DNA from: Actinomucor elegans
Taxonomy: Eukaryota > Mucoromycota > Mucoromycetes > Mucorales > Mucoraceae
Assembly (NCBI GenBank): GCA_026027325.1
Contig: JAMSLZ010000001.1
Coordinates: 2,294,001 to 2,358,000, forward strand
Direction of reading: 5' to 3'
DNA length: 64,000 bases
Part shown: in pieces, positions 5,560 to 29,158 of the stretch
Layout: every line of letters starts with the position of its first letter
How positions within the stretch are numbered: the stretch's first letter is position 1
Program-made: the position numbers and the translations under genes
Notes under the pieces: generated by a model
The model's database searches: none
What the model was told of the DNA's origin: nothing
Seen by the model: only the letters and a program-made list of their open reading frames with translations

Positions 5560-7001
<1,442 letters not shown>

Positions 7002-9414: not shown

Positions 9415-9577
9415 TATATAAATAAACATCAGTTTTATCACATAAAAAACCATTCTTTTCAAACTTTCTATCTTTAAAATAAAAGTTTCGTATTTATAAT
9501 AGTAAGTCATGCTCCCAAATAATATCTGGTAGTTTCATTGTGTTTAATATGTTTTTCTTCTCAAAATGATAGATAGT
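9415..9577 (+). promoter_or_regulatory. TATA box, 5' leader and 5'-UTR intron of cysteine-rich peptide copy 1
   Basis: TATATAAATA sits at 9415-9424 and is followed by an ACATC block. A GTAAGT donor lies at 9502 and an AG acceptor at 9572 or 9576, just before the ATG at 9578. The same order and spacing recur upstream of the other two paralogues. Confidence 0.55.
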
Positions 9578-9775
9578 ATGTATTCCAAATGCTTGTTCAT
9601 CCTTTTTGTATTATGCACTATTGCTTCAATTGTGATAGCCGAGCCTCAGAGACAAGCTTGCGAACATTATTGTATATACTAACACGAGAAATGTCGCGAT
9701 AATCCTCGTGAAACCTCTTGTGATCATATCAAAAATGAATGTTACAATTCTTGTGCAGCAAAATATTCAAGATAG
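9578..9775 (+). pseudogene. Small secreted cysteine-rich peptide, copy 1, interrupted by an in-frame TAA
   Basis: The frame begins MYSKCLFILFVLCTIAS, a signal peptide closely matching the paralogue at 10921 (both start MYSK). After 34 codons a TAA at 9680-9682 interrupts the frame, which then continues in phase to the TAG at 9773-9775. The six mature cysteines keep the family spacing C-x3-C-x6-C-x8-C-x6-C-x3-C only if the stop codon is counted as one residue, which shows that the interruption is a recent point change within an intact frame. The tail ends AAKYS, like EAKYS in copy 3. The promoter and leader intron are intact, so it may still be transcribed. Stop readthrough or a base-call error are alternatives. 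Function is unknown; it was presumably secreted. Confidence 0.6.
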
Positions 9776-10770
9776 AAGTAACATCAACTCTTTTGTACCT
9801 TTAAAAACTATCATGATAACCTTATTAAAATAAAGCTAAACTATATAGTGATAGACTACACAAGTCTCATCCTTAGATAATAGTATACAGCTATATTAAA
9901 GGCTTATTCGTCATTTTCACGATCTATGTAGCCGTTTAAAAGCGAATGCTCTTGAATCGATTATGACTTCATAAAGTAGGCGTGCTATCGATGTCCATCT
10001 TTGTGAATATGAAATTGCAAGTGCTTTAATTCTCCTGATAGCTACTTAACAATTGCCTTTATCACGATCCTCGGAGTTAAAGCAAATTAACGCTGATTTG
10101 GTTCGCATACTGCATTATCGAGATAATTACCCCAAGTTAAATTTTTAGGATAGAAACGTATTGAGTGTATATATATATATATATATAGATAGATATTCTT
10201 CGTGGTAGATGCAATTTATTATGCTGCATAGTTGGTGGATGGTGACATACGTTATTAACTTGAAACACGGGTTTAGAATATATGATAATATATAGTCCAG
10301 CTTGTTCTTTATTATCTTCTGTCGAAAGTAGGAAGTATACGGCTTAAAAAGCATATTATCGCATAAATATCTATACAAAGATCAATCCTTTAAGACAGGT
10401 CAATAATAGATCATTTACGTATTGATTCGGATCCTTTCGATCGTTATCAATTAGTACTGTGTTCGTGCATTTAGTTATGAAGAAAGTTTATTCGTATTCG
10501 TTCATCAATAAAAAAAATATGAGTCTATTTACTCTGTTAATATACATACACGATATTTAAAGCGGTAATATAGTATTAACATATATATGGTACGAGAGGA
10601 CTATTATCTGAAAGGCTCCGAGAAATAGGGTTCTCTCAGATAGCTTAGTTTATAATTCATCGTAATTAGAACGGCTTGTTATCTAATCCAGATTAAAATA
10701 CGTTAGACACTATATGCTGTTTGCTTTGAAGAGATAATTGGAGGAACAGCATAGAGAAAGAAAAATCTTT

Positions 10771-10920
10771 TATATAAATAGGTAGACATCTTCCATCGTC
10801 AGAAGGACCACTTCTTTTCAACTATATAGGATAATCCTATATCTCTTGTAAGTGAAATTTACTTGGTTGTTTCAGTTATACTTAATATACTTTATTCGAA
10901 ATGATAGGCTTCAGCTAATC
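10771..10920 (+). promoter_or_regulatory. TATA box, 5' leader and 5'-UTR intron of cysteine-rich peptide copy 2
   Basis: TATATAAATA at 10771-10780 is followed by GACATC, a CTTCTTTTCAA block resembling copy 1, and a GTAAGT donor at 10848. The likely acceptor is at 10907 or 10914, directly before the ATG at 10921. The TATA-to-donor distance is 77 nt (87 in copy 1, 78 in copy 3). Confidence 0.55.
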
Positions 10921-11091
10921 ATGTATTCCAAAAATCTAATTATCCTCTTTACCTTGAGTGTTTTTGTTTCAGAAGCAATGGTCCATGCTAAAACATCTTG
11001 CGAAGACAAGTGCATGAAGCAAGTCTACCCTTGTACTACTGGTTCATTCGACTGCCAAATTGCATATCAGTTCTGTTTGGAGACATGTTAA
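10921..11091 (+). CDS. Small secreted cysteine-rich peptide, copy 2
   Basis: This encodes a 56-residue precursor. Residues 1-23 (MYSKNLIILFTLSVFVSEAM and VHA) form a signal peptide. The mature part of about 33 residues has six cysteines at 27, 31, 38, 45, 52 and 56, giving C-x3-C-x6-C-x6-C-x6-C-x3-C, the last being the final residue. I chose the ATG at 10921 rather than an upstream in-frame ATG-less extension because it aligns with the MYSK/MFSK starts of the two neighbouring paralogues and follows the shared leader intron. The paired CxxxC motifs recall disulfide-stapled helical hairpins, but no known family is recognised. It lies between copies 1 and 3 in the same orientation, about 1.1 and 1.9 kb away. 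Likely an extracellular effector-like or signalling peptide; that role is inference only. Confidence 0.65.
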   Translation: MYSKNLIILFTLSVFVSEAMVHAKTSCEDKCMKQVYPCTTGSFDCQIAYQFCLETC

Positions 11092-12266
11092 TAGGTATAT
11101 CCAAAACACAGCGCTAGCCATTTAAAATATCCTAATAAAGAGGGGAATAACCAAAGAAAGAGAGAAATTCTTTTACTATATCTCAGTCTATGATTACTAT
11201 GACTGATAGATCTAGTCTATCGTTTAGCTACTGATCAGTGGCAGGTCAAGGTGATGCGCAAAAAAAAAAAAAAAATTACACAACGCACAATAATGTTTTT
11301 GAGTTATTAGTAGACATAAACGTACCATGTAGGTCCCATATACTTGAGGTATTTGAAACAGTACAATCTAAACATATAATACCGGGAACTGATGCGTTCT
11401 ACGAATTGTGTTTTTTGAAGTGTCATCAGATGTTAACTCTGAAAGCTACCTTTAAGAGTATTTTACCATGCTTTTGCCTAGAGAAAGTACTATAATAGAT
11501 ATTATAACTAACCTTTCATAACTGCATATGTTTATTTGCAATCATAAATGTTACACATTTCTATCCTAGTTAGATAATATATATATATACCAAAGGCTTA
11601 CTCATTTTTTTTCATCTCGCGTATTATAGTTTTGACGTTATTTGATTAATCACTCGAAACATGCAAGTTCAACTGTGCTGTTATAATTTGTTCATTCCAA
11701 TCTGAAAAGGAAGATTGCATCCTAGTCAGATGTCTACGTGGCAAAAAATACAGTAACAGATATAATCAACATAAACTTCTTTTCTCACTAGAACTTTTAA
11801 ATAATTTACGTGAATAGGTATAAAGTATAGGGATATTGAAAAGAACAGAAAGAATATTCTAACTAACGAATAGCCTAATGAGGTATTCCAGTATTTTTTC
11901 AGGTATTTATAAAGAGGATAATATTATAAATGATTACAATAGGCTTGGATACATGACATTAAAAAAGAATCTGGTGTATTGTACTTCAGAGCTTCTACTT
12001 TTATTCTGTAATAATTTTGATACTGCTATTTCCAATCCTTATATACGTTCTTGAAATAAACAAATAGCTTAATACACTTTAATACATGTATAGTGACCCT
12101 GACAACTTCAGGAGGTAATCAACATACAATCTTTAAAGGGAGTGTGTATCTAGACAATACTATGCGATGTCAAGATACAAGTACTACACATATTCAAGTT
12201 TTCAGCTCATCTAATCTGGCGTACAATGTTTAACAGATCTCAAGCTGTACAATATAGAGATCTTGG

Positions 12267-12302
<36 letters not shown>

Positions 12303-12875
12303 TTAATAAACAAACCGCACGCTCAGCATGATCGAATTGTTAAAGTCCCTCTTGTAGTAGAAATCATTTTATATTCCATATAACTCTCAGGCCCTATACA
12401 TGCCATATATTGTTGAACTTACTATGCTAATCATTATTGATATCTGATGTACTTAAATATTAAGTATTATATATCCAAAGGTTTGGGCGTAAAGCTCAAA
12501 CTGAGCCTTTATCATTACAGAGTGGGTAATTCATTAACAGCGCCCTCCTTCGATTTCTTTTGATTGTTACTTATACATGTTCTACATTAAAACGTTTAGC
12601 AATACATGGGATTTGCGCGGTTCTTAAAGGCAGTATTTAAATGACTGATGTATACGTTTAATAAGTATGCTATTTAGTATACCTCTTAGGGCTTTGTATT
12701 ATTCCTTAAGGCTCATTATATACGTATTCAGTTGGATAATACAAAATCGGCCTAAAGGCTCCGGAAACAGTAACTGTTCAGGCATACTTTTGTAATCATA
12801 GGAGTTTAGGCACATGATAATGAATTGATTGTTCAGCACATTATGGTTATACAATGTTGTAAATACACACTTTTT
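11092..12875. other. Gene-free spacer within the peptide cluster
   Basis: This AT-rich spacer contains a T31 run at 12269-12299. A 85-codon frame at 11238-11495 begins with GTG and a poly-lysine run of A residues and is probably not a gene. Nothing else is supported. Confidence 0.55.
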
Positions 12876-13038
12876 TATATAAATATGTAGTAATTCAACA
12901 AAAGGATGATTTATCTTTATTATAGTTATAATAGTAGTCACTTCATACCAAAAGTAAGTAGCATGCCCGCAAAATCTTTCTGTTATGCTTAAAATACTTT
13001 TGTTATATATGCTTTATAAGATTCGCTGTCAAAATTAC
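12876..13038 (+). promoter_or_regulatory. TATA box, 5' leader and 5'-UTR intron of cysteine-rich peptide copy 3
   Basis: TATATAAATA at 12876-12885 lies 78 nt before a GTAAGT donor at 12954. The sequence after the donor (GTAAGTAGCATGCCCGCAAA) resembles copy 1 (GTAAGTCATGCTCCCAAATA). A likely acceptor AG is at 13019-13020 and the ATG at 13039. Confidence 0.5.
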
Positions 13039-13230
13039 ATGTTCTCCAAAGGGTTATTTATTTTATTTATTTTTCGCGTGTTTACCTCAGTCGCTCTAGA
13101 ACAGACTGAACGAGAACGATGCCAAGATGCATGTCGTGAAGCTATAGGACCGGTTCTTTGCACTTGGCCTCCATGTCCCAATCCACGCTGGGATTGTATG
13201 ATCGACTACTGCGAAGCAAAATACTCCTAA
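13039..13230 (+). CDS. Small secreted cysteine-rich peptide, copy 3
   Basis: This encodes a 63-residue precursor. The signal peptide begins MFSKGLFILFIFRVFTSVAL. The mature part has six cysteines at residues 28, 32, 41, 46, 53 and 58 (C-x3-C-x8-C-x4-C-x6-C-x4-C), including a proline-rich CTWPPCPNPRWDC core, and ends in EAKYS. It differs from copies 1 and 2 mainly in the spacing of the middle and last cysteine pairs, while keeping six cysteines, the start motif, the TATA box and the leader intron. The frame stays open 18 codons upstream, but that part falls across the leader intron, so I use the conserved ATG. Function unknown; secretion is inferred from the signal peptide. Rapid divergence among the three copies fits a fast-evolving secreted family. 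Confidence 0.62.
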   Translation: MFSKGLFILFIFRVFTSVALEQTERERCQDACREAIGPVLCTWPPCPNPRWDCMIDYCEAKYS

Positions 13231-13985: not shown

Positions 13986-16371
13986 CTAATAAGCAGCAGC
14001 TACCCCTCCCTTTCTAGGATCACTGGCTGCATGAAGTGTGCCGTTGTTATACTTTCTTATTGCTTGTGAAGCAGACACAGTACCTGTTTCAGCCAGATTA
14101 CGAAGCTATTATAGGTTTAGATGAAATTAGTTTGAGTAAAAATAACAGGAAAGATAACTTACTTGGTGACCCTTCTTTAATAATTCGTCTAAAATTAGGG
14201 TACTATAACCAGTTTCGAACTGAGCTTCGTTGGGAAGCAGTTGATGGTGAATTCGAGGTGCCTTGACAGCATCATACACGTTCTGATCAAAATCATACGT
14301 GTTCAAGATGACATTTAAAGTAGCAGTTAAGATTTGAGAGCCTCCAGAACCACCTACAACCAACTCTAAATTGCCATGTTCATCTTCGACAATTGTAGGT
14401 GTAATGGTAGATAATGGACGCTTGCTTGGTGCTATAGATAGTAGTGAGGATTATATTCAAATGCATATTATGTTACTTACCAATATAGTTGTAAGGACTA
14501 GGATATAGACCAAAATTATTGGGAATACCTGGAATACTGAAATCATCCAACTCGTCATTCAAAATGACGCCAGAAACAGGGTCCATAAACTTGGCACCAA
14601 ACATGAGATTGACAGTGGACGTCAAAGATACAGCGCCATTATCTTTATCAATAACAGAGAGATGCATTGTTCCATGGGGATCGTTGCTTTCATATTTGGG
14701 TTCGTAATATGAGTAGTCATGCGTCTTATCCTGAGTAATAGTATAAGCAACAAGTTAGACTTTGTAATTTGATAACTTACATCAGTGATATTCTTTCTAA
14801 CTTTGTCTGCCCACTCTTTACTAATAATCTCATCTATGCGCCCTTGATTATGGATGAAATCTGGGTCGCCGATCTCGGTTCTGAAAGCATATCCATATTT
14901 GATTGCTTCAATGAAATGATGAATGGTTAGTGGTGTAGGACCGGTAATATTGAAAAAGTAGGGCTCAATAATGTTCAATACACTCAGAAGTGCAGGTCCG
15001 CTTGTAGGAGCAGAGGTTGTAGTTACTTTACGTCCATGATAATGAGTACTTATAACAGGTCGCACCAATGGTCGATAATTCTTCATATCTTCCAAAGTCA
15101 ATATGCCACCTGCTGCTTGTGTAGCATTGACGATGGTTTCGGCAATAGTTCCCTAAATCAACGTGTTACCAACTTGGTTTTTCGTCATTTTAAGTAGATC
15201 AAACCTCATAAAAGACATCAGGGCCTTCCAATGAAATGGTTTTTAAGGTAGACGCTAAAGTAGGGCGACTGATTTTATCACCTGGTTTAGCAATGACACC
15301 TGAAGGGGCATATACTCTTGAGAACTCAGGCGATGCCTCAATCCATAGCTTTGATTTCTATAATAAATATGAGTATCGCTTTCAGTATAATCTATCATTC
15401 CAGTGTTTACCACTAATTTGCTGTATAATAAATCTGTCACTCGGAAACCATTCTCAGCTACACGGATTGCAGAGGTAAAAAGGTCTTCCCAAGGAACTTT
15501 ACCATGTCTGTCAAACAAGACGAGCATGAATACATTATATTCACGTAGATAGTCTTACCTTTTATGAGCCAATTCGAAACCTCTTATCTCACCACTAGAC
15601 CGTATACATTGTTAGTCATATATATATATATATATATACGCGGTTGCGGAATAACTTACGGCACTCCAACTGATAGGCCGCCAACTTGGGCAGACATCGG
15701 ATCTTTAACGAACATATCTTTGTACGATGCAGCAGGAGCCGTTTCACGAAAATCGATATGTTCAAATGATCCATTAGGTGAACGAATCAGCATGAACCCA
15801 CCACTTTTAGATATGCAATGTTAGCTTTGGAGATTGAGAGCACTTTTTAGTTTTTTCTTACCCGCCAATGCCTACAGAAATGGATAAGTATTGTGAACCA
15901 ATGAATATGGCGCAATTTTTGGGCGCTTGCTTATGATTTGGTCTTACCAGTGGCAAAACTATTCACAACACCAATACAGAGAGCGGATGCAATGGACGCA
16001 TCCACAGCGCTACCACCTTTTTTCAAGACTAAAAATCCATAAAATTATTAATTTTATGTAATAATGGAACAAAAGATGAGCTTGTTACTTTCAAGTCCTG
16101 CATCGGAACACTCTTGTAATTCGACAGCTACTGCGCCTTGTGTTCCAACAACTAGGTGAGGTTTGTCTTTATGGCACATTAGTAATTATTAGAATGCATA
16201 TATTGTAGTCTTACCTGACACTGACGAATCTCGGTGTAGAAGTGATGCAGCTACACCTACAGAGGAAATGACAAGAGCTGCCGCTACTACGACCAAAAGC
16301 CTGTAGCTCTTTGTACTGCGCTTTTCTCTATTGCTCAGTAACCCTTGAACTTCTATGTCATAAGCGCTCAT
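13986..16371 (-). CDS. Gamma-glutamyltransferase (glutathione hydrolase), membrane-anchored
   Basis: This cleaves the gamma-glutamyl bond of glutathione and transfers or hydrolyses the glutamyl group, at the vacuole or cell surface. About ten small exons span 16371 to 13986. The N-terminus (MSAYDIEVQGLLSNREKRST) is cytosolic and is followed by a signal-anchor at about residues 25-45 (LLVVVAAALVISSVGVAASL). Family blocks then appear in order: LKKGGSAVDASIASALCIG, GIGGGGFMLIRSP, DFRETAPAAS, TSAPTSGPALLSVLNIIEP, and GTMHLSVIDKDNGAVSLTST. The threonine of GTMHLS, codon 14670-14668, is the expected self-cleavage nucleophile that forms the two subunits. VVGGSGGSQILTATLNVIL near the end is the small-subunit signature. 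The C-terminus is rich in alanine (GGVAAAY). One intron contains a (TA)n run near 15618-15638. Exon ends were not all resolved, but the gene identity is secure. Confidence 0.92.
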
Positions 16372-28123: not shown

Positions 28124-29158
28124 CTATTCGTAAATACCATTCTGGACGACACGCTTACAGCCATAGGCACTTCTACCGGCATGACAATCGTCATAAGAGT
28201 CACAACATCTGATACAGTAATCAGGTCTGTCAGGTTCAATTAAACTGACATAGTACTTGTAGCCGTAACACATGGAGTTGGGAGGAGATCCCTTACCGTG
28301 GTTATCATATTGTCCACCACCGTCAATACGGGAGAGTTGGTAAGTATCAGGATTGAATTTACCAGTGACTTGAACATAACCAGCAGTGGTGTTCTTGTAG
28401 AAGTGAGCGCTTTCAATGAAACCGCGGGGCAAGGTACGAGCACCAGCAGCCTTAACTTCGTTCTTCTTCAAACAGAAAGCAACGGCGCTCTTTTCAGACT
28501 TGGAAATGGCTTCAGGGTCAACCTTGCCCTTGTTATCAGCCTTTCCACCGGGGCTACTGGGTAAGAAAAGACAGAAATCGCTCTTGCTAGTAATATGAGC
28601 AGTTAAGCCATGGTTGTAGACGAAGTTAGGGGTAGCGGTGGGCTTAGGAGAGGAGACAGTAGTGGTAGAAGAAGGCTTGTTGGAGGGATTAGTGACCTTC
28701 TTGTTGGTAGACTTTTTGGTGGTGGTCTTCTTCTTGGTGGTAGTCTTCTTCTTGGTGGTAGTCTTCTTCTTAGTAGTAGTCTTCTTTTTGGTGGCAGAGG
28801 ATTTAGCAACACAAAGGGTCTTGCCAATCTTCAAATTACTACATTTGTAATTGACTATAATAGGGAAAAAGAGACAAAACGAGTGAGAATTGCGAACAAT
28901 GCGATTTATTTTAGTGTAAACTTACTGGAAGGATTGAAGGACATCAATTTGGCAGAGGAAATATTGACTTTATCGGCAATGCTGAAACACTATAGATAAA
29001 TAAAGAGTTATTTTTTTTTCTATTCAGAAAAGACATGGCATTGTACGTACAGTATCACCAGCAACGATCTTGTAAGTCTTGGTACAGGTAGTGGGAGCAG
29101 CTTCAACCGAGAAAACGGCGGCAATGCAAGCAACAGCGATAGCAATTGGGGTACGCAT
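28124..29158 (-). CDS. Secreted LysM-domain protein with KKKTTT linker and a cysteine-containing C-terminal domain
   Basis: LysM domains bind chitin or other GlcNAc polymers. Three exons are read from 29158. Residues 1-20 (MRTPIAIAVACIAAVFSVEA) are a signal peptide. A single LysM follows (TCTKTYKIVAGDTCFSIADK ... FNPSINYKCSNLKIGKTLC) with the usual YKIVAGDTC start. A tandem KKKTTT linker (18-bp DNA period, about 28715-28795) connects it to a domain of about 170 residues starting FVYNHGLTAHITSKSDFCLF. That domain contains AFCLKKNEV, LPRGFIESAHFYKNTTAGYV and a C-terminal cysteine group (CIRCCDSYDDCHAGRSAYGC). I recall similar C-F-L-P...YVQVTG domains in secreted proteins of other fungi but no named function. 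C-ending codons suggest strong expression. Likely cell-wall or extracellular. Confidence 0.85.
28711..28795 (-). repeat. 18-bp tandem repeat encoding KKKTTT
   Basis: About four imperfect 18-bp units inside the LysM gene encode Lys-Thr blocks of the linker between the LysM and C-terminal domains. Copy number could vary between strains. Confidence 0.85.

Follow-up and report, generated by a model that had tools for sequence, protein, structure and literature searches.

Six-cysteine peptides of a diverged, putatively secreted family in Actinomucor elegans

Among published peptides, the cysteine frames found to come closest to those described here are those of aphid BCR3 and of the plant alpha-hairpinins with six cysteines. 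Alpha-hairpinins occur in a four-cysteine form (4C; C-X3-C-X4-20-C-X3-C) and a six-cysteine form (6C; C-X3-C-X3-C-X4-20-C-X3-C-X3-C), and their cysteines may be the sole conserved residues (PMC11591084). They adopt a helix-loop-helix structure in which the 4C form pairs C1-C4 and C2-C3 and the 6C form has two extra cysteines, and they are in part encoded as multi-module precursors (PMC11591084, PMC7191063). For BCR3, PMC9604261 gives the frame CX3CX6CX21-25CX6CX3C and lists the disulfide pairing as unknown. On a more general level, small secreted proteins are considered effector-like if they possess a signal peptide, are shorter than 300 amino acids (aa), are rich in cysteine (>5%) and are lineage-specific (PMC4759460). 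The present analysis concerns three small genes of Actinomucor elegans, described in an earlier note as a tandem of paralogous secreted six-cysteine peptides, which are located in a window of 64,000 nucleotides (nt) (G000:C1:2294001-2358000; plain positions refer to this window) of a genome of 36.5 Mb in 27 contigs.

The gene family and its cysteine frame

These three genes belong to a family that is real and larger than first noted, that has no name as far as searched, and whose members would be of a known kind, namely small secreted cysteine-rich peptides. Nine protein queries were run against the whole genome, each returning part of one set, and at least 12 loci on four contigs were obtained in this way, i.e. 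nine beyond those of the window; all counts are lower bounds, and family E-values were computed for one genome. The strongest links connect L013 to L012 (E 2.2e-6) and L007 to copy 1 (E 1.3e-4). Intact six-cysteine units are found at eight loci, which are copies 2 and 3 of the window together with L007 (C1:2195974), L019 (C1:2408109, minus strand), L010 (C17:130519, minus), L013 (C21:233117, minus), L022 (C22:1906050, minus) and L012 (C21:482864-483280, corresponding to L012:1501-1917). The latter encodes 138 aa with three tandem six-cysteine units, bringing the number of intact units to ten and identifying the unit as a module. Since these three units agree at the nucleotide level (identity over 108 nt of 81 for units 2/3, 68 for units 1/2 and 59 for units 1/3), the array grew by duplication. 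Another locus, L018 (C1:1709941, minus), retains four cysteines, and three of the 12 loci are broken or decayed (copy 1; L021 at C21:492857; L014 at C21:1066748, minus). L012 is strongly acidic (net charge -22), and the broken L021 is 10 kb away; in the vicinity of L012, frames are present that by eye resemble a polysaccharide deacetylase (L030:7217-8699) and a polygalacturonase (L031:6808-7694).

Nine of the ten intact units share the frame C-x3-C-x6-C-x(6-10)-C-x6-C-x3-C, with middle gaps of 6, 6, 8, 9, 9, 9, 9, 9 and 10 residues, the exception being copy 3 with gaps of 3-8-4-6-4. L018 reads C-x3-C-x16-C-x3-C, i.e. both C3 and C4 are gone. Outside this frame little is kept: among nine members (36 pairs) the mean identity is 38% over residues 1-20, 23% over the mature part and 8% over the mature part without the shared cysteines. 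The cysteine content of the mature part ranges from 8 to 18%, and the net charges of the nine mature parts are -22, -5, -3, -2, -2, -1, -1, +2 and +4. This range makes it less likely that the family is uniformly cationic and membrane-lytic.

Within the window, all three genes were recovered at the position and on the strand given in the earlier note, in a gene-poor stretch of about 7 kb. Copy 2 (10921-11091, plus strand) is intact and encodes 56 aa with a signal peptide judged by eye to span about residues 1-23, followed by cysteines at residues 27, 31, 38, 45, 52 and 56 (gaps 3-6-6-6-3; C-x3-C-x6-C-x6-C-x6-C-x3-C). Copy 3 (13039-13230, plus), likewise intact, encodes 63 aa from its MFSK start and ends in EAKYS; an alternative in-frame ATG at 12985 yields 81 aa, which is the form listed in the protein collection (P0002). 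Its cysteines are residues 28, 32, 41, 46, 53 and 58, the last pair being C-x4-C instead of CxxxC, and the spacing quoted in the note therefore applies to copies 1 and 2 and fails for copy 3. Six mature cysteines had been assigned to all three precursors, which holds for copies 2 and 3; copy 1 (9578-9772, plus) is a broken gene. From its MYSK start at 9578 it runs for 34 codons, comprising the signal peptide and a C-x3-C, into an in-frame TAA (9680-9682), beyond which the frame (9683-9772) still holds four cysteines, including C-x6-C-x3-C, and the tail AAKYSR up to 9772. An intron skipping this stop was rejected by eye, as the GT preceding the stop pairs with an AG only 17 nt away, which is too short, while use of a more distant AG would remove the last cysteines. 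The AKYS tail common to copies 1 and 3 is real, as is the strong divergence elsewhere: the copies have only short stretches of DNA in common, among them an 18-nt box and a 17-nt tail, and any duplication must thus be old.

A common layout is also present upstream of the coding regions. The word TATWTAAAY lies 143-163 nt before the ATG at 11 of the 12 loci (exception L010), and GTAAGT, GTAAGA or GTAAAA is found 62-86 nt before the ATG at 10 of the 12 (exceptions L019 and L022). Binomial chances based on the word frequency in the intergenic stretch of the window amount to 1e-22 for the box and 3e-15 for the donor-like site; these values are indications only, because both words and bands were chosen with the data in view. 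In the window, the TATA-type box reads TATATAAAT in each copy and is located on the plus strand at 9415-9423 (163 nt before the ATG of copy 1), 10771-10779 (150 nt before that of copy 2) and 12876-12884 (163 nt before that of copy 3). GTAAGT follows on the same strand at 9502-9507, 10848-10853 and 12954-12959, respectively, as a candidate donor of an intron in the 5' leader, which would be the natural reading of such a site.

Predicted fold and relation to known peptides

The spacing of the frame is mirror-symmetric (cysteines i, i+4 and i+11 versus j, j+7 and j+11), so that each helix would present its three cysteines on a single face, in register with those of the other. The arrangement points to a helical hairpin, antiparallel and tied by a disulfide ladder of three rungs, in which the register of the cysteines would give the pairs C1-C6, C2-C5 and C3-C4. 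L018 lacks C3 and C4 together, as would be expected from a C3-C4 rung and in keeping with the loss of one rung as a whole. Fold prediction, which the earlier note had proposed as a check, was carried out with AlphaFold2. For mature copy 2, with the ten units as input rows, a helix-loop-helix was predicted (helices 2-12 and 20-32) with a predicted local distance difference test (pLDDT) of 81.1 and a predicted template modelling score (pTM) of 0.47. For full-length L007, with the nine members as rows, pLDDT was 72.6 and pTM 0.40, and the model comprises one helix that extends from the signal part as far as residue 36, plus a second one at 42-58. The hairpin is a fair prediction.

Compared by cysteine spacing only, BCR3 resembles the fungal family in its six mature cysteines (C-X3-C-X6-C...C-X6-C-X3-C; PMC9604261, Table 3), the outer spacing being identical in nine of the ten units, and it likewise possesses a secretory signal peptide. 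It differs in its middle loop, which counts 21-25 residues versus 6-10 in the fungal units, so none of the latter matches the BCR3 motif, and PMC9604261 reports BCR3 from aphids only. With alpha-hairpinins, the family shares paired CX3C motifs and a multi-module precursor; their helix-loop-helix is also the fold predicted for mature copy 2. L018 conforms to the published 4C motif. None of the ten intact units conforms to the 4C or 6C motif of PMC11591084, as nine of them have X6 instead of X3 beside the inner pair and the corresponding gaps of copy 3 are 8 and 6. Since the fungal units do not match the exact motif of either system, the peptides would at most work like them. The likeness is probably convergent. 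The alpha-hairpinin papers, in the parts cited, treat plant peptides, and a sequence relation to the fungal units was not found when a profile of the units was compared with PDB chains (no match at E<=10; the presence of solved alpha-hairpinins among these chains was unchecked).

Further library searches agree with the earlier note, which had recognised no named family, in that none was found in Pfam, NCBIfam or PDB. In Pfam, neither four family proteins (best E 0.052) nor the ten units (best E 0.039, matches from one member each) exceeded a curated cut-off, and NCBIfam assigned no family to nine members. Phage families, searched with three of the proteins, gave nothing beyond chance. Hefutoxins, a family from scorpion venom, are CX3C helical hairpins; the comparison of L012 with Kappa-hefutoxin (PF08095, Toxin_25) remained at chance level (E 1.8; 9.5 bits versus a cut-off of 25). 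A link to coagulation factor XI in PDB (E 0.21) was rejected as chance; a profile restricted to the units had no match at E<=10. A search of a protein collection containing few fungi returned L007 itself, deposited by the Joint Genome Institute (JGI) as 'hypothetical protein', and a further one returned L007, the copy-3 protein (P0002) and the unrelated-looking P0003 at E 2.3; L012 had no match there. P0003 (108 aa) was not kept, as its CxxxC pairs stand in a different layout, and L004 (E 2.0) was rejected as a member on inspection. Among the literature matches listed, most subscription papers lying outside their scope, no description of a Mucoromycota family with this cysteine frame was found; small secreted proteins are discussed for Mucor in PMC7011435, where the sections concerned do not name this six-cysteine family.

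Proposed explanation and its rivals

The explanation we favour, to which we give about an even chance, is that of a small gene cluster of a secreted-peptide family whose ladder hairpins bind targets outside the cell and whose copies are gained and lost. Each gene would have a separate TATA box and a short, probably intron-containing 5' leader, and would encode a signal peptide plus one six-cysteine unit, or three in one case. After presumed secretion, the unit would fold into a pair of antiparallel helices with a short connecting loop, held by the ladder C1-C6, C2-C5 and C3-C4. As such a ladder would accept almost any residue between the cysteines, the surface could diverge freely with the frame being kept, and a constant frame with free faces is what target-binding peptides would be expected to show. 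The target would most likely be on, or come from, another organism (a competitor, prey, host or resident bacterium). As targets change, copies might be gained and lost in the manner of a birth-and-death family. An extended version, to which we give little credence, would see here an as yet undescribed fungal superfamily of disulfide-ladder helical hairpins, single or in tandem, whose faces act on bacteria or neighbours as a convergent counterpart of BCR3 and alpha-hairpinins, possibly including control of bacteria that live in or on the hyphae.

Several observations weigh against the favoured explanation. Several links within the family are weak, with the hydrophobic signal peptide contributing much to them (copy 3 to copy 2, E 0.012; copy 2 to L007, E 0.048), and the same applies to the best values of L022 (E 0.016) and L018 (E 0.0066). 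The distance bands behind the upstream counts were picked after the data had been seen. Copy 3 falls outside the mirror spacing, the AlphaFold2 inputs held just nine and ten rows, and pTM was low. In Foldseek searches against PDB, the model of mature copy 2 had no match and that of L007 only seven (E 5.7-9.8), yields that say little, because very short helical hairpins are hard for Foldseek. Finally, target binding and antagonism are what we infer from the sequences, in which a signalling role would look the same.

That the genes are non-functional frames, i.e. chance cysteine-rich open reading frames (ORFs) in an AT-rich intergenic stretch, is very improbable and was rejected on the basis of shuffled windows and of the paralogues elsewhere in the genome. 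In none of 150 dinucleotide-preserving shuffles of the window was the six-cysteine pattern found in its strict or loose form, compared to one strict and two loose occurrences in the real window. The 12 related loci with their common upstream layout, the three-unit member and the L007 protein in a public collection speak against chance as well, while the broken copy 1, the gene-poor 7-kb setting and the weakness of some family E-values would suit it. How far the mature parts alone connect the window copies to the family was assessed with a profile built from the mature regions of eight units, all from outside the window, and searched against the window frames. With the composition correction of HMMER switched off, the second half of copy 1 ranked first (E 3.2e-4), copy 2 second (E 0.029) and copy 3 third (E 0.16; best single stretch E 3.7). 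When it was switched on, the first and second ranks went to the halves of copy 1 (E 0.016 and 0.52), neither of which passed the threshold for inclusion; neither copy 2 nor copy 3 was among the matches listed. The tie of copies 2 and 3 to the family by the mature part alone is therefore weak, the remainder of the case coming from the full-length searches and from the upstream layout.

As regards function, antimicrobial or symbiont-control peptides, which as secreted disulfide-rich helical molecules would act on membranes or enzymes of bacteria or fungi like alpha-hairpinins or BCR peptides, are possible but rather unlikely. BCR3 is among the BCRs for which PMC9604261 lists antimicrobial or membrane-permeabilising activity, and some alpha-hairpinins, helix-loop-helix peptides with paired CX3C, derive from many-module precursors that invite comparison with L012 (PMC7191063, PMC11591084). 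The likeness to either group is one of cysteine spacing only, seven of nine mature parts are net negative, and the spread of charges from -22 to +4 speaks against a membrane-lytic action shared by all. That the peptides are effectors with which a facultative pathogen or endophyte acts on a plant or an animal seems somewhat less probable. The peptides are short and cysteine-rich with a signal-peptide-like start recognised by inspection, in agreement with the effector-like features of PMC4759460, yet these features are non-specific. The effector-like group is a catch-all of unrelated families, and small-secreted-protein genes are mentioned for cheese-ripening Mucor too, at the lowest frequency (PMC7011435). 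Secreted signals between hyphae, serving mating partner recognition, self/non-self distinction or density sensing and diversifying like pheromones, we consider unlikely. Small, disulfide-rich and diverged peptides would fit this role and a common upstream layout would allow co-regulation, but broken copies count against an essential signal, the flanking genes encode an isocitrate/isopropylmalate dehydrogenase and a gamma-glutamyltranspeptidase, and a Pfam scan of ten frames of the window gave no pointer to mating or signalling.

What stands apart from the choice of role is a family of six-cysteine peptides, diverged and with a start resembling a signal peptide, a claim of the earlier note now borne out at 12 loci by a common cysteine frame and upstream layout. 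Exons of an FKBP-like gene of this genome have PDB 6vct, a Mucor protein, as their best match, though with incomplete identity (46 of 50 residues in the first exon). If the organism is an early-diverging fungus, as the earlier note supposed, these would be secreted peptides of a little-described sort. With its strict cysteine ladder, modular three-unit member and upstream layout, the family would supply a profile for searching other Mucoromycota as well as a compact scaffold. In case a role against bacteria or competitors proves true, the family would represent a further independent origin of paired-CX3C helical peptides beside those of plants and aphids.

Start pattern and surroundings of the cluster

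The pattern ATGTAYNNNAARNNNYTNTTY was found at 75 places in the genome versus 53 for its reversed control. Thirty-six of the 75 belong to one repeat (MYEKELF), and the remaining 39 include eight with a stop inside the match. With these eight left aside, 31 places were inspected, of which six are family members and 25 are not; such a start alone is thus no marker, and copies 2 and 3 are missed by it. One signal-peptide pattern match, at C21:412574 (L071), was rejected as it lacks both the box and the cysteine frame and appears by eye to be part of another coding gene. The exact 21-mer ATGTATGAGAAGGAGCTCTTT, which reads MYEKELF, occurs 36 times on many contigs and is probably a dispersed repeat; four of its occurrences lie in the first 11 kb or so of a contig (C21:1074, C11:3482, C12:6179 and C5:11099).

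The gene-poor stretch is bounded by the two ORFs assigned by Pfam to the isocitrate/isopropylmalate dehydrogenase (6471-7001, plus) and the gamma-glutamyltranspeptidase (14622-15152, minus). Elsewhere in the window, an ORF at 28127-28921 (minus), for which Pfam gave no match at E<=0.001, contains a lysine-threonine-rich (KKKTTT)n stretch and, after it, a segment in which several cysteines occur. Long homopolymer runs of T (12270-12299) and A (11260-11275) are present in the interval from copy 2 to copy 3.

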